Below, piece by piece: positions 1 through 53,800 of a DNA stretch of 64,000 nt. Under the pieces are notes generated by a model. It was given only the letters and a program-made list of their open reading frames with translations. It did no database searches and was not told the origin of the DNA. Every line of letters begins with the position of its first letter. Position 1 is the first letter of the stretch. Source of the stretch: Euphorbia lathyris. Its lineage: Eukaryota > Streptophyta > Magnoliopsida > Malpighiales > Euphorbiaceae. The stretch spans positions 12,738,001 through 12,802,000 of the forward strand of contig NC_088917.1 in the NCBI RefSeq assembly GCF_963576675.1, read 5' to 3'. Position numbers and translations under genes: made by a program.

Positions 1-335
1 AGAAGTAAAGGGGAGAAAAGAATAAGGTAGAAGACAGACCCAAAGAATTAGGGAAGAAGAGAGCAGGGAGGAGAGAAAATAGGAAGGAAGAAGATAAACT
101 TCATTTGATAATATTTTGATAATAGCAACTTACAAGGAAAGACTCTAAATAGGCAAAGCTACTGCTGATGTGGCAGCAGTACAAATTCCTACAGCTGTGA
201 ATAGTACAACTGTTACAGTTGTAAAACATTCCTAAATAACAACTATTTAAAGAAATAACAAGTAAATAATAACTCAATTAACCACCTAATTTAATACCTA
301 AATAATTCCTCTTAATTAAACTAATAATCGTGACA
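1..335 (-). repeat. 3' LTR (partial) of the chimeric element
   Basis: This is the downstream LTR in the element's minus-strand sense. It begins TGTCACG at 335 and runs off the window start. It matches 3674-4008 base for base by eye. Confidence 0.9.
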
Positions 336-3300
336 ATACCCCCTCCTTTAGATCATTCTTGTCCCCAAGAATGTAGAAAAAACAGAGAACTGCCACCAGA
401 ATTGTTACCGTCCCTTGAAAATCGTCACCTGTTAACTTGTCCATAGTTGCAACAGCTCTAAAAAATACCATAGTAAGTAGGTAAAGTGCAGAAGTTATAA
501 TAGTTGCATCCATACAAACAAAAATCAGCTTGTTCTCTGTGGAAATGGTGCAGTACTCACTATTGACAGCTACAGAATTGACTGTGTGTAAATACCCAGG
601 CACATCTTGAAATTGCACTATGGTTCCAGAAATTGGAGAATGAAATCGATTATAATCCTGTGGTGCCAATGGAAATATGACTAAATATCCATCAACACAA
701 ATGGTAGAGCTTATTTCCTTTCCCTTCAGGGCTCTAGTAGAAAATTTCCAGCCTTCAATCTGTAATCTTGCACTTTCTTCGACATTTTCAAATTCCATCA
801 GACAACATTGAGATGCACAAACAACAACTTTATCATGTACTATGAAAATAAGTTGTCTCGCACCAAGTGTTAAGTCCTGTATGAAGAACTCCTTGAAAGT
901 CTCAAAATTTCCTAGTGGGAACTTGACTTCAGCCAAATTAATTTGATTCTTAAAAAGTTCAACTACTTGTGGTATTTCCTCTGAGTATTCAGCTGAGTTC
1001 ACGTGCCTTCCCTTCTTTTCTGAAATGCTTTGTAGCAATTGCTTAGCCCTTGTGCTCATAATTTCCATGTTGACATCACCTTTTGAAGACCCATCAATAA
1101 TGGCTGTCGCAATCCTACTTACAGCGTTGTAATATAACTTACTATTAAACCTTCCTCTTTGGATTATACCCAAGAGGCGCTGCTCATCCACCACTGTTAT
1201 ACTTAAAGCAGATAATTCTACACTGTCATATATTAAACTGTGAGTTCCAATGACCATGGAGATATGTCCATTTTGGAGAGCCTTAATTCGCACTTGCTTC
1301 AACAATATTGACCTTGTTAAGAATACAATTGAAGGCTCTAACTGGTCATCATTCATAGTCGTTAGCAACTTAAGCAAGTGCTCATAACGTGGGGTTGCAA
1401 GCAATTCAATTGGACCCATGTAGGTTGCTTGATAATCAGAGAAAGCTAGCTCTAAGTTTCCATTTTCGTTGGTAGTAACCTCATGAACTGTAATCAGTTT
1501 GACTCCATCAGGAAATGTCCCTTCAACCTCATTTAGAGAAACTAACGAAGAAACCTTAACTATCAAAGGGTCCTTAAGCCCAACAACACCATAAACATTT
1601 ACACATTGAGAGACTATTGGATTTGTAAACTCATTCTTTGGCAGCAATTTATCCTTCGCGAATTCCCCGATTGAAATTAATAGCATATTGCCATAATTAG
1701 CATCCTGTCTCTTGTAAGGTGATCCATCTTCATAAATCTTCCTTCCCAGCACTGTTTTCTGGACTCCTCTGTGCTTTGCTTCTTCATTCCTTAGTTTCAC
1801 CCTCTGTATTCCTCCAACAAACATTCCCAAAGAATGATGCACCATCCCAATTTCTGCAATTGTACTTGCAACCATTGCTTCAGTGTTTGTACCTATTTCA
1901 TCTACAACTATCACTTGGGACATATGATTTTCAACTACTTCTATCAATACCTCTGTCATGGTGGACCCTAAGTCTGTTAGGTGTGGGGCAGCATTACTAA
2001 TTGCAGATTTTACTCCATAATCTACGTCGTCATCAAAAGTTTCTCGAATAAGACCAACCTTCAACCGCTTCTGTAGTCTAGATTCGACAAGATGGGATGA
2101 AGCTAATTGAGATATGAAATGAAGAACCGCTCCCACATTGCTGGTGGCATCGCATATATCATAATCAGATATTGCATGAAGAAGGATCCCAGTATCAGCA
2201 ACTGATTTAACAAGGCATCCAATAACATCAACAGAAAACACATAAGCCAAGAGCCCAAATCTTGAGACGCGGCTATAGGTTGGCTTCAAACTAACAACAC
2301 CACAAATTGGCACTAGTAGTCTTACGCTTCCACCAGTATAACTTCCAAGTGAAACCGCACATTGCCTATCAGGAACAGCTGCAGCAAATTGCCCTGATGA
2401 CCCTCCTGGAACTTGAGATAAACCCCAAGGTTTTGACGTAACCAGAAATGTACCTCCAGTAGCACGCCCCATACCAAATTCATCCAGATTAGTCTTCCCA
2501 ATCACAATAGCACCCTTCTCCTTTAATTTCTTCACCAATCTAGCATCGTACGACGCTCGAAAGTTCTCCAAAAAACGGGAACCACCAGTAGAAGGCATAT
2601 CTGGCGTGCATATGTTATCCTTGATAGCAACAAAAAACCCATCAATAGGTCCCTTTATCTTCACCCTAAGAATAGACTCACGTCTTCCAAATGTCCATAG
2701 AAGAATATTTCCAACATAAGGATTTATAGTTTGCAGATCACCATCATCAATTGATCCCTTCCCATTTGGACCAAGGTCATATGGTAGTTTATCAAATCTG
2801 TCAGGTGGTTTCTCCATTTGAAGCTTCACTACATTAAGAGGCTTCCCTTTCTCTGTCCAATAAGCACCGACCCCCAACTTCAGCTTGTTGGGGCTAGTAT
2901 CTTTGCATGCAAAAGTAACCCCAAGAATAGGGTCTTCAAGAGCACAAGGCATATGCAAATGCTTAGATTCAATCTTCTGTTTGCACAAAATTTGGTTCAC
3001 AAGATTCTGACCTTGAATCCTAAACAGATCAAAATCATGTCTGTTTGGGGTGTTTTGGGTCCAAGATGTAGTGATTAATGGGGATCTAAAAGTTGGGTTA
3101 GGTTTAAGATTGTTTGGGGTGTAAGATGTAACAGCAGACTGGGGTTCAGGGTTTAAATCAATGACAGAACATGGTAGAGAGTAAGACTCAGTAACAGAGG
3201 GGCTTACCTTCTCCATTTGATGCTTTAGAGCTTCACCCTGACATTGCGTGACATTTACAGTAGTGGTCTGCTTCATTAGGCAAGCCTGCTCCAGCACATC

Positions 3301-3600
3301 TTCTATGTTTCCCAGCACATAGGGATTTGTTAGCTCCATCTTCCTTTTAGGCATTTCATCGAACAGCTGGAAGGTGGTTTGCAAGGTTTCCTCTTCTTTA
3401 TTCTCAGACATTACATCAAACAGCTGGGAGGCAACAAAACAAGGATTTGAAACTCCTTGTTTTTCTAGAATCAGTTGAGCCAAGGATATGAGAGATATGT
3501 TGATTCGTTCAAGAGAGTTTTGTCGCTGCTTACGAAACAGTTCTGCGAGGTTTTGTTGCTCCTTGCAAAGTAGTTCCCATCGTTGAATAGATTCTTCCAT
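316..3600 (-). CDS. Chimeric polyprotein made of fused host-gene fragments
   Basis: The open frame runs 3657 to 316, 1,113 codons without a stop. It enters from the 5' LTR, reads through the primer-binding site and polypurine tract, and stops inside the 3' LTR. The ATG at 3600, just inside the primer-binding site, is the more plausible start (residue 20 of the long frame). Using long-frame numbering: residues 20-239 are a charged, probably gag-derived or unknown N-terminus. Then come pieces resembling aspartate aminotransferase (240-283), GatA amidotransferase (336-570), Ycf45-type ATPase (571-640), unknown (641-703), urease (704-739), RecG helicase (741-843), unknown (844-866) and phosphatidylserine decarboxylase (867 to about 1060). 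A hydrophobic tail follows. Every join keeps the frame. No single domain is complete, so enzymatic activity is unlikely. Whether the protein is made is unknown. Confidence 0.75.
337..349 (-). other. Polypurine tract of the chimeric element
   Basis: On the minus strand this reads AAAGGAGGGGGTA and lies directly before the 3' LTR start (TGTCACG). It is the expected second-strand priming site. Confidence 0.8.
478..1059 (-). pseudogene. PSD: Captured phosphatidylserine decarboxylase fragment
   Basis: Residues 867 to about 1060 of the chimeric frame follow the plant PSD2/PSD3 decarboxylase domain. Recognisable stretches are [34 protein letters not shown] and [13 protein letters not shown]. This family makes phosphatidylethanolamine and must cut itself at a C-terminal Gly-Ser motif to create its pyruvoyl cofactor. 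That C-terminal motif is not in the captured piece, so it cannot be an active decarboxylase. No intron interrupts it. Confidence 0.8.
1129..1437 (-). pseudogene. RECG: Captured RecG-type DNA helicase fragment
   Basis: Residues 741-843 of the chimeric frame resemble plant organellar Rec[14 protein letters not shown] (motif Ia region), MVIGTHSLI (motif Ib/II region) and [16 protein letters not shown] (DEx(H/Q) motif region, normally VVDEQHRFGV). The Walker A segment lies outside the captured piece and the DEQH histidine has become arginine, so helicase activity is not expected. Confidence 0.82.
1441..1548 (-). pseudogene. Captured urease fragment
   Basis: Residues 704-739 carry [16 protein letters not shown] followed by [10 protein letters not shown]. 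This corresponds to the conserved gamma/beta junction of plant urease, with [11 protein letters not shown] and ENGNLELAL as usual forms. Only about 36 residues were captured and none of the nickel ligands is included. Confidence 0.75.
1738..1947 (-). pseudogene. Captured Ycf45/R3H-type AAA ATPase fragment
   Basis: Residues 571-640 read like the Walker B and following region of the nuclear-encoded Ycf45 family (SpoIIIAA-like ATPases of plastids): [21 protein letters not shown], then [15 protein letters not shown] and [11 protein letters not shown]. The segment between them, usually containing a VATAHG-type motif, is partly deleted. The Walker A loop is absent. Confidence 0.78.
1948..2652 (-). 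pseudogene. GATA: Captured glutamyl-tRNA(Gln) amidotransferase subunit A fragment
   Basis: Residues 336-570 are the largest captured piece and follow the amidase-signature core of organellar GatA. The catalytic lysine (K346 in VAIKDN) and the nucleophile-region serine (S444 in TGGSVR) are kept. The GGSSGGS loop holding the cis-serine has become GGSSGQF, and the Asp before TGGS is Tyr. A second block ([17 protein letters not shown]) continues the family sequence. GatA normally converts Glu-tRNA(Gln) to Gln-tRNA(Gln) in plastids and mitochondria with GatB and GatC. About half the protein is missing. No introns are visible, which suggests an mRNA source. Confidence 0.88.
2809..2940 (-). pseudogene. 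Captured aspartate aminotransferase N-terminal fragment
   Basis: Residues 240-283 read [20 protein letters not shown] then [18 protein letters not shown]. This matches the start of the mature class-I aspartate aminotransferase fold (usual form DPILGVTEAF, then LGVGAYR). The pyridoxal-phosphate lysine and the rest of the enzyme are not included. Confidence 0.85.
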
Positions 3601-3617
3601 GACCGGAGGAAGGAAAT

Positions 3618-3628
3618 CTCTGATACCA
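3618..3628 (-). other. Primer-binding site, initiator-Met tRNA type
   Basis: The minus strand reads TGGTATCAGAG, the standard plant site complementary to the 3' end of initiator methionine tRNA. It starts one base after the 5' LTR ends at 3630. Confidence 0.88.
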
Positions 3629-3629
3629 A

Positions 3630-4008
3630 TGTCAGGACTAGAGATCCTGACTGTCAAGGACTAGGGCAGAAATAGAAGTAAAGGGGAGAAAAGAATAAGG
3701 TAGAAGACAGACCCAAAGAATTAGGGAAGAAGAGAGCAGGGAGGAGAGAAAATAGGAAGGAAGAAGATAAACTTCATTTGATAATATTTTGATAATAGCA
3801 ACTTACAAGGAAAGACTCTAAATAGGCAAAGCTACTGCTGATGTGGCAGCAGTACAAATTCCTACAGCTGTGAATAGTACAACTGTTACAGTTGTAAAAC
3901 ATTCCTAAATAACAACTATTTAAAGAAATAACAAGTAAATAATAACTCAATTAACCACCTAATTTAATACCTAAATAATTCCTCTTAATTAAACTAATAA
4001 TCGTGACA
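3630..4008 (-). repeat. 5' LTR of the chimeric element
   Basis: A 379-bp LTR in minus-strand sense, TGTCA...TGACA. Its inner end is set by the adjacent primer-binding site and its outer end by loss of identity with the left copy after base 4008/335. Confidence 0.85.
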
Positions 4009-4254: not shown

Positions 4255-5865
4255 CTTTTTTATATGTTCACTCCGGTTGTCACAATACATTTTTTTTTTT
4301 GAAGAACACAATACATTTTTAATTAATGTATTTGTTGGTATTCATGTAATTAAGGTAGAAAACAACTGCAAGAGGGGCACTAACAACCTCAACTTCTACC
4401 AAAGGAAGATCAGTAGGCCCAACATGAGGAGGAGAAGCATCAGTAGACACAGGAAGATCAGCAGGCCCAACATGAACAATTTCAGGTTAACAATTGTTTC
4501 GTTGGGGATGATGAATATGTACTATCTCCAGCACCACCAACAGAAGAAGCTAAGAAGTGATGCATTTTTTAGTTTTTAATTTGAAACAATTGCTACTCTA
4601 TAAAGAAAATTGAATTCTATTAGAAAAAAATGAATTGATCAATTGTAGACACTTGTTGGGTTCATGATCCTTGATGCAAATTAGTGGATCATGCATTCAC
4701 AACTAGTGTAAACTTCTCAAGACTGTCTATTAGAGTTTGCCTAGATGGAGTGTGCAATTTCATCGGAGAGAATGAGGCCACACCATTGTAGGTACTTGGA
4801 TGGTTGTCAGACGTAGGAGTTGCAACGGATGAGGATTACAAACCTTCATGGACAGGTAGATTTATGTTTAGTCTTTTTATCCTTGTTTCCAAACTAATTA
4901 ATAAATTTTAATACTTGATTTACAAATGGTAGAGATTAATGAATAAGTACAAAATCAAAGACCTTGTATTCTTTAAATGTGATAAACTTGATGAGCTTTT
5001 GACGGAATACAATCCATTGTGTGAAATTATTGTTGTGCACAGTGATTTGGATGAGGAATTACATTATCTTGCTCAAGGGCCAGTAGCATAATATCTACTG
5101 GTTCTGGAGCATGTTAATTTAACTCATCGAAATCCCCATGCACAAGAATAATTCCATACATTGGTCTGTATTCTGTTAAATGCCTGTAGAGCTCACTGGG
5201 TTGTTCACTTTCAAAGAATTCAGAGTCTTCGATTTTGGATCTATTTGTTGATGTCTATCATTTATAAATTAAGTGTTGCAATTTATTAATTAGCTCGGAA
5301 GCAAGGATAGAAAAACTAAAAATATATCAACTTGTCCATGAAGTTTGTAATCCTCCTCCGTTGTAACTCCTCAGTCCGTTAACATTCAAGTACCTTTAGT
5401 GGTGTAGCATCACTGTTTCCGAGGAAACCACACACCCCGTCTATGCAATCCCTAATGGACAAACTCAGGAAGTTTAGACCATGTTGTGGATATGGATTCG
5501 ATAATTTGCTTAAAGACTCATGACTGTGGCTTAGGCCCAGAAGTATCTATAAATACAATTAGTTCATTTTTCCTGATAAAATTCAATTTTCTTATTATAG
5601 ACTAGCATTTGCGTCAAGATGAAACATTCTATCACTACTTACCTTCTTTTATTGGTGGAGATGGTGAAAATTCAACACCCAGATTAAATACCTGAAGCTG
5701 TTTATGTTTGAGCCCGTTGATTTTCCTGGTCGTTGTTGAGGCTGTTGGTGCCCCTCTTTCAGTTGTTCCCCACCTAATTTACATGAATGCCAATAAATGG
5801 ATTAATTGAAAATTTATTGACAGCCAGAGAGAGTATATTAACAAAAGCCTTTTTTCAAGTATTTG
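4255..5865. repeat. Large imperfect palindrome (inverted repeat), centre near 5095
   Basis: The left arm (about 4255-5090) matches the reverse complement of the right arm (about 5100-5865) through almost its whole length. Examples: ATTAATAAATT near 4900 against AATTTATTAATTAG near 5290; GAGGATTACAAAC near 4833 against its complement near 5350; and TGTGAAATTATTGTTGTGCA near 5020 against TGCACAAGAATAATTCCATA near 5145. The arms differ by many substitutions and small indels, so the structure is old. It could be a foldback or Mutator-like element with very long terminal repeats, or an inverted duplication. I identified no transposase. Confidence 0.75.
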
Positions 5866-20612: not shown

Positions 20613-21647
20613 ATGGGCGAAAACAACACTCGGTTTCTTCCAGAAAACCAAACAACTCAGATATTGCCTGAGGGGCTGTCCATTACTCGGCCTCCCCTAT
20701 TCTTCGGGTCTAACTATACCTTCTGGAAGAATAGGATGAAAAATTTCATCCAGGCTACAAATATGAGTGCTTGGCTATCTATAGTCCAAGGCCCATTTGT
20801 ACCTGTCGAAGTTGTGGCTGGCCAAACAGTTTTGAAAGCTGAGGCCAAATGGACAGAGGATGATCTCAAGAAGCTTCAAAATCATGCTTCGGCTATTAAT
20901 ATGCTTCACTATGCGCTCAATGCTGCAGAATATAATAAAATCTAAGGTTGTGAGTCGGCACAAGAGATCTGGAAAAAGCTGGAAGTCACCTACGAGGGAA
21001 CCAACAAAGTAAAGGAGTCCAAGGTGAATCAGCAGATGAGATTGTACGAGCTGTTCGAAATGAACAATGATGAGGGTATTTCTGAAATGAATGCAAGATT
21101 TACAAACATCATCAACGAGCTCAAGAGACTTGGAAAAATCTTCACTGAGGAAGAACAAGTCAAAAAGATTCTCAGAAGTCTTCCTAAAGACTGGCAAGCA
21201 AAGAAGACCGTTGTTGAGGAAGCTCAGGATCTCACCACCTACAAATATGATGAACTCATCGGCTCACTGCTGACCCATGAGATCTCAATCAAAAATTTTG
21301 AGGTGAAAGAAAAGTCTGAAGACAAGAAGCAGAAATCTCTTGTCATGAAAGCTGACTCCACTGAAGGGAGCTCAACAGATGACGAAGAGATGGCCATGTT
21401 CACACGAAAAATGAAAAGGCTATTCAGAAAGAATGAAAAATATTCTAAGAAGCCTTACAGAAAGTTTGACAAGTATAAAGCTGACTCAAGCGACAGCAAA
21501 TACAAAAAGGACAGCTCAAAGCCTATTACTTGCTTTGAGTGTCATCAAACTGGCCACATTAAGTCAAGCTGCCCAACGCTGAAGAAAGACAAAAAGAATG
21601 GCAAAAAGGCAATGGTGGCAACTTGGAGTGACAACGATGATTCTTAA
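20613..21647 (+). pseudogene. gag of the Sirevirus-like element, copy 1
   Basis: The frame begins MGENNTRFLPENQ and carries a copia gag core (FFGSNYTFWKNRMKNFIQ, then a UBN2-like stretch with QQMRLYELFEM). A CCHC zinc knuckle, CFECHQTGHIKSSC, lies near the end. The frame is closed by a TAA at 20943-20945 and resumes in the same frame. A second TAA at 21645-21647 ends the block. Both stops are also in copy 2, so they predate the duplication. Gag would normally form the virus-like particle and bind RNA. Confidence 0.88.
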
Positions 21648-21770: not shown

Positions 21771-22871
21771 GAGGGGCTGTCCATTACTCGGCCTCCCCTA
21801 TTCTTCGGGTCTAACTATACCTTCTGGAAGAATAGGATGAAAAATTTCATCCAGGCTACAAATATGAGTGCTTGGCTATCTATAGTCCAAGGCCCATTTG
21901 TACCTGTCGAAGTTGTGGCTGGCCAAACAGTTTTGAAAGCTGAGGCCAAATGGACAGAGGATGATCTCAAGAAGCTTCAAAATCATGCTTCGGCTATTAA
22001 TATGCTTCACTATGCGCTCAATGCTGCAGAATATAATAAAATCTAAGGTTGTGAGTCGGCACAAGAGATCTGGAAAAAGCTGGAAGTCACCTACGAGGGA
22101 ACCAACAAAGTAAAGGAGTCCAAGGTGAATCAGCAGATGAGATTGTACGAGCTGTTCGAAATGAACAATGATGAGGGTATTTCTGAAATGAATGCAAGAT
22201 TTACAAACATCATCAACGAGCTCAAGAGACTTGGAAAAATCTTCACTGAGGAAGAACAAGTCAAAAAGATTCTCAGAAGTCTTCCTAAAGACTGGCAAGC
22301 AAAGAAGACCGTTGTTGAGGAAGCTCAGGATCTCACCACCTACAAATATGATGAACTCATCGGCTCACTGCTGACCCATGAGATCTCAATCAAAAATTTT
22401 GAGGTGAAAGAAAAGTCTGAAGACAAGAAGCAGAAATCTCTTGTCATGAAAGCTGACTCCACTGAAGGGAGCTCAACAGATGACGAAGAGATGGCCATGT
22501 TCACACGAAAAATGAAAAGGCTATTCAGAAAGAATGAAAAATATTCTAAGAAGCCTTACAGAAAGTTTGACAAGTATAAAGCTGACTCAAGCGACAGCAA
22601 ATACAAAAAGGACAGCTCAAAGCCTATTACTTGCTTTGAGTGTCATCAAACTGGCCACATTAAGTCAAGCTGCCCAACGCTGAAGAAAGACAAAAAGAAT
22701 GGCAAAAAGGCAATGGTGGCAACTTGGAGTGACAACGATGATTCTTAATCAACAGAAGTTGAGGCCACCGAGTCAGCAAAGATATGCTTTATGGCTAACG
22801 AACTTGCTGAGCCATGCGTTTCTGAGCATGCTGACCCCTCCGATGAATCAGACAATGAGGAGCAATCAAAT
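21771..22871 (+). repeat. 1,101-bp tandem duplication, unit 2 (gag copy 2)
   Basis: Identical to 20670-21770 as far as I can see, including two in-frame stops (22044-22046 and 22746-22748) and the zinc knuckle. Only this copy is continuous with pol. Confidence 0.95.
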
Positions 22872-26450: not shown

Positions 26451-29231
26451 ATGTCGAAGCTCTCTTTCAATGTCTCCGGTGCCGGTCGTTCTAAGACCAA
26501 CACCGATGAACAACCCAAAGCAAATATCTCCACTCGGCCCTCACCTGCTAAGACAACTGGGCAGAGCAAAGGAAAAGCTGCCCAAGCAAAACCAGCTAAA
26601 CCCAGAACCTACACCAAGGTTTTCAAAAATGTGAGAGAATGGAAGGTGGAACCTTCATGCTGGGTATCCCAAACATTCGTAGAATCTGAACAGCCCTTCT
26701 GCGAATGGATTTCAAAGAACGAATGGACTGAGCTGTTTTCCCTCAGATTCCCGACCTATCCTGACCTTGTTATGGAGTTCTACCAAAAACTCAAGGTTGA
26801 CATCAAAGACCAGGATTACCTTGTGACTGAGGTAAAAGGGAAGACAATCTTCATAAACCCTACCTATTTAGCATCTCTCCTCAGCCTAAAGAATGAAGGA
26901 GTAAAGCTGAGAAGAAATGGTGACCAAGATAACACTAAGTATGACCAGACCTTCTGCAAGCCTGAAGGGCACATAGGAGAGGTCTCCAGCTCATCCATGG
27001 GCCAACATAAAAAAAATGGCTCATTACTTACTGATCAACTATATCTACCAGAAGATTAACTGCACCAGCTCAGCATCCAACTTCGAGCAGTGTTTCATCT
27101 GGCATATGCTGACCTACAAGCCAATTAACATGCCTGTGTTTCTCATTGCTGGATTCCTGAGAAGCACAAACAACTTGAGGCTGGGCTTTCTAATCACCAA
27201 AATCCTTGTTGACCACCAGGTGGACTTGCAAGGAGAAGAATTAGTCAAGGGCTCAGAAATCACGGCAGCTTCACTGCGTGCCCTGAAGTATGGTCAGCCT
27301 TTGAAGAAAGGCAAGACAGCTGAGCAACCAACTGAGTAATCTGGTGAGCAGCCTGCTGAGGAGACAACACCAACAAAGGGCAAGAGAACAAAGGCTCCTG
27401 CTGATAGAAAGAGGAAAGCCAGTGGGACTCCTTCTAAGATAGATGAGCCTCAGGCCAAGAAGACTAAGCCAGTTGCTGAGTCAGGTCAGGAGAAAACTCA
27501 GTCAACTGAGAAAAGAAGCAGGCAAGGTGAGTCTGCAGCTGAGGCAAGCACAGATGCTGATAATCAACCTCAAAAGAGGCAGAAGTCTTCCTCTCTGACT
27601 CCCGTTGATGCTCTCCCCCTTGACTTTGTTGTTCCCAGCGATTCTCACCATACACAATGTCAAGGAGGTGAAACTGAGCAGCAGAATAATGCTGATGATG
27701 AACTGGATGATCAGTTCATTGCTGAGATTGAGCAAGAGCTTGAGCAAGAAGATGATAGTGATGAGGAAGAAGAAGGCGAGCAAGAAGAGGAAGCTGACTC
27801 TGAAGAGACAGCTAGTGATAATGATCAAGCTGACCCAACTCACACTGAGTCAGCTGATGGAGCTGAACAACACGAGGATCAAACTGACCAGCACAATGCT
27901 GATCAGAATGAAGAAGTCTCTCCATCTCACTCAGGGGATGTTCAAGCTGACCCTCCTCTATCTAAGAAAAGAAGAAGATTGGTGAAGGTAAGTACCTTAG
28001 ACTTACCCGTCAGCGCACCAACAAATGATCCATCTAAGATCAAACTCAAATTCTTCCGCAAACCTGCTCCACCTGCACCATCAATTCAACCCTCTCCATC
28101 AGTAGAAAATCAAGCCTCTGTTTCTACCCAGGAACAAGCCGACATCAATGTCACTGCCGACCCTATAATTCAAACCGAGAAAAATCTCGAAGATATTTCT
28201 GCTCCAGTCAGTACTGCTCCAACTCAGTCTGGCTGTGTACCAGAAACTGTTTCTGCTGATCTATCAACTCCACCATCTGCATCAGTTCAGAATATAACTC
28301 CAGTCACTGACCTTCCGGAAAACTCCAACGCTGAACTCATCCCTCCTCCTACCGGTCAAACTGCTACACCCAGCGCAAATAATGAAGGAGCTCTTAACTT
28401 CATAACTGCCACTGAGTCTGGAAGACACCTGATCAACTCAGTCCAGATTCTTATCAACGACCTTCATCAACCCACTGCACCTGCTGATGTGTCTGTGTCC
28501 AGTGACACTACTCAGCTCTCCCAAGTCACTTTACTTCTAAATGAAGTGAAGTCGGTGAAGGATCTGCTCAGTATGCTGACCTCAATGCAAGCACAGCAAT
28601 CCAATCAGGATGCACTTCTAAAGCTGGCAGAAGTCCAACTATCCATGGCTCAACACATCAACGCCATCCAAGGACAACTTCAGACCATGGCTGCTGAGAA
28701 TGCGAAGTATGCAACTTCTTCTGAAGTTAAGATGCTTTTCGCCCAGCTTCACACCGAACAATCAAGACCAACGAACAGCTTGCAAACAGTTCTCAATGCT
28801 CAATGGAGCAACTCAGCGAAGCTGTCCGTCTGCTGAATCTCCATAAGGAAGAGATGGACACCGACCAACTTAAGCAAGATCAAATACTGACCACTTTCCA
28901 GAAATTTTTTGATCATGTACGTCACATGAATCTTCAGCGCGAGCATTACGATACTTCTCTTCTGAAGACATTCCACAACTCGTTTGCTGTGTTGACAGAT
29001 ACTATAACTTGGCTGGGAAAGGGACAAGCCTTCGTCCTGAGTATGCTCAGCGCTGCTCAGATTGGTATTGATCCAAAAGTTTTGGATAACGGCGCCCCAA
29101 TCTTCGATGGAATAGATGAAAGCGCTGATCGGTTGAAGACCTTTTCTGCTGAGCTCACAAGAGCTGTTCTACTTGACTCCTTCAAGCTTCCTCCACCCGG
29201 TGCTGGCAAAATGGGGGAGAAGAAAGATCAG
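26451..29231 (+). pseudogene. Extra ORF behind pol (Sirevirus env-like/aORF position), part 1
   Basis: The frame begins MSKLSFNVSGAGRSK. A basic, Ala/Lys/Pro-rich start is followed by a globular part (FKNVREWKVEPSCWVSQTF, WTELFSLRFPTYPDLVMEFY) resembling the plant putative-transposon-protein domain found in copia and gypsy extra ORFs. Frame shifts near 27010 and a TAA at 27337-27339 break it. Downstream, an acidic run (DDSDEEEEGEQEEEADSEE, near 27745), a KKRRR nuclear-localisation-like motif (near 27966) and Pro/Ser/Thr-rich then coiled-coil-like sequence follow. Another shift lies near 28800, after which it runs to 29231, where the nested element enters. There is no clear membrane segment or signal peptide, so an envelope role is not supported. 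Confidence 0.65.
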
Positions 29232-33889: not shown

Positions 33890-34867
33890 TCAAATTAAAG
33901 CGTCATCCCGTTGAATTGGGATCCGTATAGCCTGGCAACGATCAATCTTCGCTTGCACGAAGATCTGTCTTTCTTCTGCAGAAAGAAATTGTGGGCCAAT
34001 CCTAAAAACATGTTTAACCAGACCCTCATTTTCCATGTATTCATAATTCATTAATGGAAAGGGTTCTGCATCGGTCCACGGAACATCGACTGATCCTTTC
34101 GCTTCGAGTATAATGCCACAGATTATATTCCCATATCCCGTTGACTTTCTCCCTTTCAACCTAGAAGCGGCAACCAGACCGTCCATCAAAATCTTCGATG
34201 AATTCACGGTATTGCCTCGGAAGATGTCGCCTAAGACATACAGGTCTGTGTCTTGGACCATACTACTAGAAGTGCGTCCAAACAAACTGTGACACAAGAA
34301 TGTATGTAAATAAACCATAGAATTGGATTTGATACACTTATTGTAGGCGAGTCTAGGATTGAAACGCCAAAAACCAGTTAGCATTCGCCAGATGTCTCTG
34401 GACGTCATATTTCTGCCAGGACGATGTGTGGATGTATCCCTTAGGGGAAAACCAAACCAGGCATGTAACTCTGGGTAGCCAAATGTGTAAGTTTTGCCGT
34501 TGTGGCGAAAACTAAGACGCATCCGACGTTTGTTAACAAAACGTACAGAACAGAGAAATTCCAGAATCCAATTTCTAATTATTGGAAATTTCATATGAGC
34601 AAACTTAGTCCACCCTAATATCTCCAAATAGCGATTCATATCGTCACTTATTCCGAGTTCATCATTCAAGAACTCGTCCATATATAACATCCCGACGGGC
34701 ATTGTATATCGAAATTGATAATAATGGCGTCCCTCATCATGATTATACAGCGGAAAGAAACAACCATAACGTGCTGATAAGTCAGGACGTTTATTGTCTG
34801 AAGCAACAATTTTCTTAGGTAGTTTATGTTTAGAAGTCATGGTGTTTGGAAATAGATAAGGAAGCAA
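33890..34867 (-). CDS. Athila ORF-1-like protein
   Basis: A 325-codon open frame. Features: FMDEFLNDELG-like segment (YMDEFLNDELGISDDMNRYL), WTKFAHMKFPIIRNWILEFL, TYTFGYPELHAWFGFP, RDIWRMLTGFW and FLCHSLFGR. These are in the style of the Arabidopsis retrotransposon ORF-1 (ATHILA) family, whose function is unknown. It follows the primer-binding site in element sense after about 1.6 kb of leader. It is the only long intact frame in the element, and the start at 34867 or at the internal Met ten codons later cannot be decided. Confidence 0.6.
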   Translation of the reverse strand: MLPYLFPNTMTSKHKLPKKIVASDNKRPDLSARYGCFFPLYNHDEGRHYYQFRYTMPVGMLYMDEFLNDELGISDDMNRYLEILGWTKFAHMKFPIIRNWILEFLCSVRFVNKRRMRLSFRHNGKTYTFGYPELHAWFGFPLRDTSTHRPGRNMTSRDIWRMLTGFWRFNPRLAYNKCIKSNSMVYLHTFLCHSLFGRTSSSMVQDTDLYVLGDIFRGNTVNSSKILMDGLVAASRLKGRKSTGYGNIICGIILEAKGSVDVPWTDAEPFPLMNYEYMENEGLVKHVFRIGPQFLSAEERQIFVQAKIDRCQAIRIPIQRDDALI

Positions 34868-50625: not shown

Positions 50626-50725
50626 TAATTAATTGGAATTTGTAAATATCCAAGCAAATGCTACGGAAAATCCCAATAAAATTACATTTTCTTTCCCTCC
50701 ACGCCATTTCCAAGTATATAAATTT
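50626..50725 (+). promoter_or_regulatory. FLOT core promoter
   Basis: TATATAAAT at 50715-50723, about 82 bp before the ATG at 50805. A pyrimidine-rich leader (TTCCATTTCCACC) follows. Confidence 0.65.
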
Positions 50726-50804
50726 CCATTTCCACCTAAAACTCTCAACATTTTCCAACTTTGCCTCTACTCCTATTTATTCATTCACACAGCCCCTTCC
50801 AACC

Positions 50805-53800
50805 ATGTACAGAGTCGCAAGCCCGTCGGAGTATCTAGTAATCACCGGGATCGGAATCTCCGATATAAAGCTTTCAAAGAAAGCATGGCTTTTCCCCGGC
50901 CAATCCTGCACCGTTTTCGACGTTTCACCAGTAAACTACACATTCGAAGTCCAAGCGATGAGCGCCGAGAAACTCCCATTCGTCCTCCCGGCAGTTTTCA
51001 CAATCGGCCCTCGCGTCGACGACGAACAGAGCCTATTGAAGTACGCGAAGCTAATTTCACCGCACGATAAGCTCTCTCACCACGTGAAAGAGCTCGTACA
51101 GGGAATAATCGAAGGCGAAACGCGAGTTCTCGCTGCGTCGATGACGATGGAGGAGATTTTCAGAGGAACTAAGGATTTCAAACAAGAAGTGTTTGAGAAA
51201 GTTCAATTGGAATTGAATCAATTTGGATTGTTGATTTATAATGCGAATGTTAAACAGCTTGTTGATGTTCCGGGCCATGAGTATTTTTCTTATTTGGGGC
51301 AGAAGACTCAAATGGAGGCGGCGAATCAAGCTAGGGTTGATGTTGCGGAGGCGAAGATGAAAGGAGATCTTGGATCGAAGGAGAGGGAAGGGCAAACGCT
51401 GCAAAATGCAGCGAAAATTGATGCGGAGACGAAGATCATAGCGACGCACAGGTATTACTGTACAAAAGTAACAGAAATTTGAAAAAAATTTGCAAAATTG
51501 AATCCAAATCGAAAAATAAGTCAACCCCAAATACTTTGCTCAATCAAGTCACTCTAACATATTAAAAGTAAAAAACACTGAAAACCTAGTGAAGGCCATA
51601 CAAGTAGTAATCAAACTCTTATTACCAGACACAAACTAAATGCGGCAGTTAGGAATGGTAACGGATATTCCACCCGCGGATACTTTATAGGTTGTCATTT
51701 CTAGTGGCTGCCAATTACATGGCAAATAATTGTCACTTAGTTCATTGAAACGACATGTGTCAATTAAGTGATAGTCATTGTATCCACACGTCGTTTTTAG
51801 CAATGAAGAGTGCAATGGATCCAATCAATGAAAAAAGAATCATACTACCTAATTAGGAAATCATTGGTGTAAGAAAAGAAAGTACACAATTATCATATTT
51901 CTATTGGTAAGGTCCAATAGACGGGACTATTGTAGAATTTCTCGTTTTTTTTTTTGCTCTTTTAAGTCAATGAAGTAACTTTATTTGTTAGACAAAATTC
52001 AAAGTTTTGATAGTTTTATGGATAAAGTCTAAAATAGGTACCTATGAATTTTTTTTATCTAAATACGGAGTTAGGTGTTTCTTTTGCAACCAGTAGATGA
52101 CTCATGTTTTTCGCTTTGCTAAAAATAATGACTTCAAAATTAAAACGGCTGTGACAACCTCAAAATTGAAAAATTCAAAGATTCGATTATATTCTAAGTA
52201 ATTTAATTATTCAACTTTTAAATTTGATGTCATATAAGTGTTGTTTAACGCGAAAGGAGAAAGTTCCAAAAATAATAATTTTGTAAATAAAAAATTTGGT
52301 TCCATAGTAATTATGGTATTAACTAGCTTTAATTTTTGAAAATTGTTATTTTTAGGTCGTTATCAGTTATTTTTATAGTGTCAAACTAAAAGATTTTTGT
52401 TTTTAACACACGAAAACCTCAATTTTCGTTTCAACAAAAAAAATAAGTTCCACTGGCATCTGTTTGATAAAACGTTTTTAAAACACATGAGTTTTTTTTT
52501 TTACCTAATTTTAAATTTTATCGAGATAAATTAAAATTGATTGACAAGTTTAATACAACCATAAGCTTAATTATTTATGTTTATAATAAACATGTATATT
52601 TACATTTAATTTTTAAGTTAAAAATATTAGAAAACTTTAAATTGAATTTAATATTTTAATATAGGTTTAATACATCATTTCTGAACTTATCCAAAAAAAC
52701 TTGATTGACCTCCTGAACTTTCAAAGTGTCCAGATAAACTTGCATAAAAGGTTCAGTTAGCCTCGTGAACTTGCATAAAATGTAATCAATTGATCACTCG
52801 GTTGCAAAAAAAAAAAAGTTAAATATGGAACGCATCTTAGAATGTTATTACATAATTAAAAAATAGATTAGAAAGGAAGTTATGATTTGCTCAACTATAA
52901 AACTTGTCAACTTTATTAGAATCATATATCCCCGATTTTGGTCGTTTTACTTTTTTAAGACGCGTGCAATACATTTTCCGTATTTAACTTACTTTTTTGC
53001 AACCGAGTGATCGATTGATTATATTTTGCGCAAGTTCAGAAAATTAACTGAACATTTTATATAAGTTGTGGGACTATCGGACCATTTTAAAAGTTCAGGA
53101 GACCAAATAAACTTTTTCAACAACTTCAGAGCGTAAATGATGTATTAAACCTTTAATATAATATATACATCAACCAACCGATTCTAATGACTAGTTAATA
53201 GATTTTTCTCTTAATGAATTGGTTAATATACTCTAATTACATAGGCAAGGAGAAGGGAAGAAGGAGGAGATAAAGGTAAAGACTCAAGTGAAAATTTATG
53301 AAAACCAGAGGGATGCTGAAGTGGCAGAGGCGAATGCTGAGCTGGCGAAGAAGAAAGCGGGCTGGGCAAAGGAAGCACAGGTGGCAGAAGTTGAAGCAGC
53401 AAAAGCTGTTTCTCTTAGAGAAGCTGAGCTGCAGATGGAAGTGGAGAGGATGAATGCTTTGACTAGGACTGAGAAACTTAAAGCTGAGTTCTTGAGCAAA
53501 GCTAGTGTTGACTATGAAACTAAGGTAACTTTTATTTCTTTACTTTAATTACAGTTTCAATAACATCCATTAGATTTTGCTTTCAGTTTCATCATTATTG
53601 TTGTTAGAAAATAAATCTCGAATTATTTTTAAAGAAAACCGGTCATAATATTCTTATAGTCAATGTCTTCAAACAAATCATATTCAGTGAATGATTTTGT
53701 GACATGATAGTAACCATTTTAATACTTTTATGTTAGAAAAAAATCATTTCTACTAATTCAACAATAAATAGTATTGTTAATAATATCTCATGAGAAATAA

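Follow-up and report, generated by a model that had tools for sequence, protein, structure and literature searches.

How does a retrotransposon that carries neither gag nor pol come to hold pieces of many unrelated plant genes in one uninterrupted frame, and what has kept that frame open? The question is raised by the first 4,008 bp of a 64,000-nucleotide stretch of Euphorbia lathyris DNA (NC_088917.1, positions 12,738,001 to 12,802,000; hereafter the window), which lies on C8 of the host genome and contains nearly all of a long terminal repeat (LTR) element. Coordinates below are window positions, all features of the element lie on the minus strand, and further loci found in this one genome (1.02 Gb, 33 contigs) are labelled L010-L041. 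The element is a non-autonomous LTR retrotransposon without gag and pol of its own, and its frame, judging by separate database matches, strings together fragments from seven or more plant genes that are unrelated to each other. We consider it probable that it arose on an LTR scaffold that is mobilised in trans, takes up spliced host mRNAs one after another through template switching, and can multiply only as long as the frame stays open.

The structural features described in an earlier note on this DNA, namely near-identical LTRs, a primer-binding site (PBS) and a polypurine tract (PPT), were all recovered. Only 335 bp of the 3' LTR are visible in the window (1..335), its last 44 bp lying to the left, and when 501 bp of the upstream genome were added, the LTRs proved to be 379 bp each and 100% identical. 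The whole element, of 4,052 bp, is flanked at both ends by the 5-bp target duplication GCTAA. The 5' LTR (3630..4008) has the form TGTCACG...CTGACA and is adjoined by the PBS TTGGTATCAGAG (3618..3629), which we take to be a match to the 3' end of the plant initiator tRNA-Met; the same site is found in the siblings compared, with one-base variants in L021 and L016. The PPT AAAGGAGGGGGTAT (336..349) adjoins the 3' LTR and has similar counterparts in the siblings. Next to it stands a 20-nt hairpin, the 3' box CATTCTTGGGGACAAGAATG (354..373), which consists of an 8-bp inverted repeat with a GGGA loop. This box was present in seven of the eight element sequences scanned, L018 being without it, and it was unchanged in nine occurrences (among them the window, L016, L023 twice, L025, L036, L038 and L041) despite wide divergence elsewhere. 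The paired TG...CA LTRs with a short target duplication, the PBS and PPT and the dispersed copies place the element among the LTR retrotransposons. Terminal-repeat retrotransposons in miniature (TRIMs) are very small and have no coding capacity; the present element is not one of them, and even L041, in which only the leader remains, has a 297-codon frame.

The single open frame runs from 3657 to 316 (1,113 codons; from the first ATG, 316..3600, 1,094 codons), crosses the PPT and ends 20 nt within the 3' LTR, while the stops in the five other interior frames number between 43 and 98. The statement that it encodes no retroviral gene held, as Pfam found no gag or pol domain over the 1,113 codons and matched only amidase, phosphatidylserine decarboxylase (PSD) and urease domains. 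The absence of gag and pol domains of its own is what makes the element non-autonomous. Seven donors were matched separately, namely aspartate aminotransferase (AAT), GatA, an ATPase that we take to be the one named Ycf45, DPE1, urease, RecG and PSD, and all seven pieces stand in sense orientation and in the frame of their donor. The six donors named earlier each matched individually; the list was incomplete, DPE1 being the seventh. The claim that the entire interior is made of host genes was not borne out, since three parts of the frame are without an assigned donor. The first is the leader (codons 20-240, 2938..3600), which begins 17 bases past the PBS, is common to the family, had no Pfam match above the cut-off and matched no known host gene. 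The other two are codons 278-332 (about 55 codons, 2662..2826), without a match in the Pfam or PDB sequence searches, and the last approximately 65 codons, for which the Pfam search gave no donor. Relatives of the leader occur in Euphorbia peplus, where they are annotated as hypothetical proteins (P0096, 284 aa; P0097, 178 aa), and the family is therefore probably older than the split of the two species.

Behind the leader lies an N-terminal fragment of AAT (2827..2934; E 1.7e-4). Beyond codons 278-332 it is followed by the GatA amidase fragment (1948..2652; Pfam 1.7e-60), which covers profile positions 42-298 of 445 and is thus truncated. The Ycf45-type fragment (1738..1953) shows an in-frame loss of 15 residues when compared with P0090; its best match in a search of 5.8 billion proteins was a lycophyte protein (E 0.046), and pairwise it reached 2e-18 with 53% over 87 columns. 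Then come the fragments of DPE1, the plastid 4-alpha-glucanotransferase (1549..1746; PDB sequence match 4e-13), of urease (1444..1554; PDB sequence match 6.6e-6, and 8.2e-4 for Pfam urease gamma, under the curated cut-off), of the RecG helicase (1066..1443; E 7.5e-40) and of PSD (526..1056; Pfam 2.9e-16, truncated to profile positions 1-119 of 198). The weakest of the matches are those of AAT, of urease in Pfam and of Ycf45. We take several of the donors to be plastid proteins, and the database record names call GatA, DPE1 and RecG chloroplastic. For RecG, the best protein matches came from E. lathyris itself and the next from Ricinus; moreover, a one-residue gap is common to the element and E. 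lathyris and is absent from the other 20 RecG sequences aligned.

These matches bear on the suspicion that the frame belongs to a conventional gag-pol element with chance resemblance to host genes, or to an assembly artefact. All that could be said for it is that the AAT and urease pieces are short. E-values go down to 1e-60, the segments were matched family by family and singly, no gag or pol was found over the frame, and a second full-length copy (L010), 99% identical and with its own 5-bp target duplication, lies on another chromosome. The sibling copies refute this explanation, to which we give hardly any credence.

The route by which the pieces entered was read from two of the seven donors, GatA and RecG, whose genomic DNA was compared with the element. 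The captured stretch of the host GatA gene on C1 spans three exons, and both intervening introns are absent from the element. The host RECG gene was located at C10:19954925-19984011; it matched the E. lathyris protein at 98, 99, 94 and 97% over the four longest matches (195, 150, 84 and 69 aa), and at 63-97% over shorter ones, some of which extend beyond the exon ends. The captured RecG stretch extends over three exons, and some four residues before it resemble the end of the preceding exon, so that two introns are clearly missing and a third if these residues are counted. Pieces of this kind could also be acquired if transcription ran on into neighbouring genes and the transcript was then spliced, that is, by 3' transduction and exon shuffling. 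The GatA piece, which terminates within a few bases of the donor exon end, is consistent with such a route, but the RecG piece stops in mid-exon and appears to begin with those few residues of the exon before, which rules out shuffling at exon boundaries as the only route. Moreover, the located donors lie on C1 and C10 while the window is on C8, and seven donors would require seven neighbourhoods. With the order of parts in one sibling subfamily, discussed below, on its side as well, read-through appears improbable. The serial capture of host mRNAs proposed in the earlier note is supported by the sense orientation, the donor frame, the absence of introns in both donors compared and the siblings; that the polymerase switched templates to do so is what we infer from them.

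Siblings were sought with the LTR (40 matches scored out of 171 candidates) and with the frame (42 of 406 candidates scored, giving 48 matches), so that both counts are lower bounds. The leader was found at no fewer than about 35 places in the genome, counted from the 48 frame matches, and 33 genomic stretches were read, including the left flank of the window, some of which adjoin or overlap. The copies fell into five subfamilies, the cargo of B to E having been assigned solely from matches to Pfam or to PDB sequences. Subfamily A comprises the window, L010 (full-length on C10, with 1,114 codons open), L011, L014 and old pieces on C1. Subfamily B (L015, L016 and L017) has the leader, AAT, pyruvate decarboxylase pieces (Pfam 1.5e-12, PDB 1.9e-5) and an M16 peptidase of the insulin-degrading type (PDB 1.3e-8). 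In subfamily C (L020-L025, L032 and L033), the leader is followed by a NABP piece, which scored just under the Pfam cut-off in L023 (2.1e-4) and just over it in L025 (6.1e-5), and by phytochelatin synthase (2.1e-64), with 917-919 codons open in L023 and L025. Subfamily D (L036 and L037) combines the leader with a vacuolar pyrophosphatase piece (PDB 1.8e-13 in L036, the same stretch in L037); its end resembles cytochrome P450 by eye, with no match from any tool, and Pfam gave no match for the frames of this subfamily. L039 and L040 have the front and middle part in common with D. Subfamily E (L038) carries pieces of NABP (1.3e-6) and SR140 (PDB 2.3e-7). Among the remaining loci, L018, L027 and L028 have the leader and AAT, L041 has the leader only and stops just before the 3' box, L026 and L030 showed only the leader, L019 a piece of the leader and L029 a peptidase piece.

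Copies that hold fewer captures or different ones, from which acquisitions might be ordered, therefore exist, and their contents suggest a sequence of events. AAT occurs in A, B, L018, L027 and L028, was not found in the copies of C, and has the same sequence to its right in A, B and L018; it thus looks like the earliest capture among the pieces of these loci. The block from GatA to PSD was found, among the loci read, only in subfamily A. Subfamily C has the 3' box twice, before the cargo and at the end (positions 1798 and 3376 of L023, and twice in L025), so that an old 3' end now sits inside the element. Minus-strand synthesis that passed from element RNA to a host mRNA and back to element RNA would leave exactly this duplicated box. 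Read-through past the old 3' end might also give it, and cargo 3' of the old box is where 3' transduction would put it. An autonomous partner, for which a search of the genome with the LTR and the frame had been proposed, was not found, and no pol was recognised in the family frames scanned. Five loci (L012, L013, L031, L034 and L035) have the LTR in common, with no leader detected. Three of them (L012, L013 and L035) form three LTRs in a row at C8:66993240-67006429, 94-95% identical to that of the element, around an interior with repeats and a frame that resembles Transposase_32 by eye. This region was considered as a possible partner; its LTRs are shared, but the search found no leader in its interior.

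If capture accounts for the content of the frame, the second question is what has kept it open. The GatA piece was changed at 30 of the 110 columns that are invariant in eight plant GatA proteins and had a new residue at 32 of the 125 variable ones; the RecG piece was changed at 14 of 54 invariant and 12 of 69 variable columns, counted without Zea P0061, from which part of the stretch is absent. With five angiosperm GatA proteins as the reference, the figures were 45 of 148 and 22 of 87. In a leave-one-out control, the donors changed 0 to 8 invariant columns, the exception being the GatA of Chara (19 of 117), and the host's own GatA changed 3 of 111. Among the 44 changes at invariant columns, 42 are one base away, and they are no more conservative than expected from single-base chance (P 0.34). 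The comparison of the element with the host exons gave a dS of 0.29, a dN of 0.16 and a ratio of 0.56 (bootstrap 0.42-0.78, 348 codons), as would be expected if one branch were constrained and the other free; with the host branch constrained and branches of equal length, the ratio on the element branch would by arithmetic be near 1. The captured GatA and RecG pieces have thus largely lost the amino-acid constraint of their donors. Drift was then simulated over the 1,094 codons under two mutation settings. At 27% residue change, means of 16.1 and 17.9 stops arose, at 15% of 8.8 and 9.8, and at either level none of 120 runs remained free of stops, while the window copy and L010 have none. The GatA piece alone stayed open at 27% in 5 of 150 runs under each setting, and RecG alone in 20 and 15 of 150. 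The openness of single pieces proves little; it is that of the whole frame that is informative. The element was chosen for the length of its frame, a bias in favour of open copies; L010 and the C copies L020-L025, however, came up in the LTR search irrespective of their frames. It seems that the frame was kept, rather than the residues.

Several observations weigh against so simple a view. Measured against the host GatA, 27 of the 107 invariant columns and 45 of the 128 variable ones are changed (P 0.12). Between copies, dN/dS was 0.93 (L010), 1.32 (L011) and 0.71 (L014) for the cargo of A, 0.67 to 1.00 for the whole frame of C in four pairs with L023, 0.29 to 0.61 for B in two pairs, and 0.92, 0.59 and 0.88 for the cargo of D. 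Weak amino-acid constraint may thus act on the cargo, though these ratios come mostly from few changes. Nor are the frames open everywhere: L011 carries a deletion of 7 bp, L014 has decayed, every one of the three B copies falls into two or three separate frames, and in D the frame keeps 859 codons open in L036 but is interrupted in L037, L039 and L040. The search for cargo, moreover, concentrated on long frames and so favours in-frame cases.

Such points raise the alternative that the chimeric protein serves the element or the plant and that selection on its function keeps the frame, as was suggested for maize Bs1. The intact frame in two copies of A and the long open frames in C would be expected under it, several pairs of copies fall below 1 in the cargo too, and the Ser-Ser-Lys letters of the GatA triad are still present in the element. 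The leader likewise gave a dN/dS of 0.35-0.92 between subfamilies with several intervals below 1, two pairs with too few codons being omitted, but the filter favours conserved windows and lowers the ratio. On the other hand, residues invariant in the donors were changed about as often as variable ones in GatA and RecG, the GatA and PSD domains are truncated, and long frames surround unrelated cargo in different subfamilies, so that no single function is preserved. A functional GatA is ruled out by its truncated domain and the changes at donor-invariant residues, and protein function in general seems to us an unlikely reason for the open frame.

We therefore favour serial mRNA capture on a scaffold that consists of LTR, PBS, leader frame, conserved 3' hairpin box, PPT and LTR, and that would be copied in trans by an autonomous element. 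During reverse transcription, the polymerase would stray onto co-packaged spliced host mRNAs and back again, as the anatomy suggests, and leave sense-strand exon pieces inserted between the leader and the 3' box. Only products open from the leader to the 3' end would keep multiplying, and the cargo protein itself would be largely free to drift. Plant transcripts with long 3' untranslated regions are subject to nonsense-mediated decay; the likeliest reason for the requirement would be that genomic RNA has to be translatable if it is to escape this decay or reach particles. Such a need would explain together why capture is in frame, why the frame is that of the donor, as the long open frame of an mRNA, and why the residues drift. 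The more far-reaching statement, that one leader scaffold took up at least five sets of host mRNAs, with the identified pieces in donor frame, and that the frames are open for replication alone, we put forward only tentatively.

The window has further features outside the element. Just right of it, at 4596-5600, lie inverted repeats nested in one another, with arms of 157 nt that are 78% complementary and arms of 34 nt, which resemble a foldback element or a miniature inverted-repeat transposable element. Two identical 207-aa copia-type gag frames stand in tandem at 21024-21647 and 22125-22748, 1,101 bp apart, before copia pol frames. A Transposase_32-like frame occupies 26451-27059 (5.6e-9, below the curated cut-off) and an ATHILA ORF-1 frame 33890-34867 (Pfam 1e-8). 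The 274-aa Band 7 (SPFH) frame at 50658-51482 (Pfam 6.7e-22) is probably part of a host gene.

The sister lineages with other genes make it possible to order acquisitions and to measure their rates within one genome. Moreover, an unbroken frame with largely unconstrained residues offers a clean way to ask whether the RNA of a retrotransposon has to be translatable for it to multiply, and it illustrates how long fusion proteins could come together ahead of any function. If the more far-reaching statement above is true, a gene-assembling lineage of this kind would act as a natural engine that produces multi-domain fusion proteins, its raw material being translatable without functional selection.

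Among known systems, the closest is maize Bs1, an LTR element described, in the passages of a review, as having a chimeric frame from three host-gene donors (PMC13317346). In both elements, fragments transduced from several host genes are joined in a chimeric frame, the present one with introns absent in both donors compared; it differs, as far as that part of the description goes, in having seven donors instead of three and in belonging to a leader-scaffold family with five cargo sets. Soybean GmaRetroS15 and other gene-carrying TRIMs are likewise small LTR elements with intron-less exon fragments, two of them with pieces of more than two genes, according to the accessible text of that report (PMC4717578). 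According to the same text, they measure 1,172-1,449 bp, whereas the Euphorbia element has 4 kb and a frame across its whole interior, and no shared leader frame is described there. Host gene pieces inside intact LTR elements were also surveyed in maize B73, where the consulted portion reports 425 gene-bearing elements and, under the conditions of that survey, none with more than one gene (PMC2774510). Additional frames of plant LTR elements that are explained by transduction occur in one or few copies, according to the excerpt at hand (PMC7264820), and the part of a rice and sorghum survey that was available contains nothing on several genes per element (PMC3726574). The literature searched, much of it available in part, yielded no LTR element with more than three named host genes, which does not establish that none exists. 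Set against one gene per element in the maize survey and about three in the best-known exceptions, as these partial sources give them, seven stand here in one frame. The Euphorbia element thus belongs with Bs1 in kind and is an extreme case, with more donors, a leader scaffold that is shared by a family, and capture that was repeated in sister lineages.

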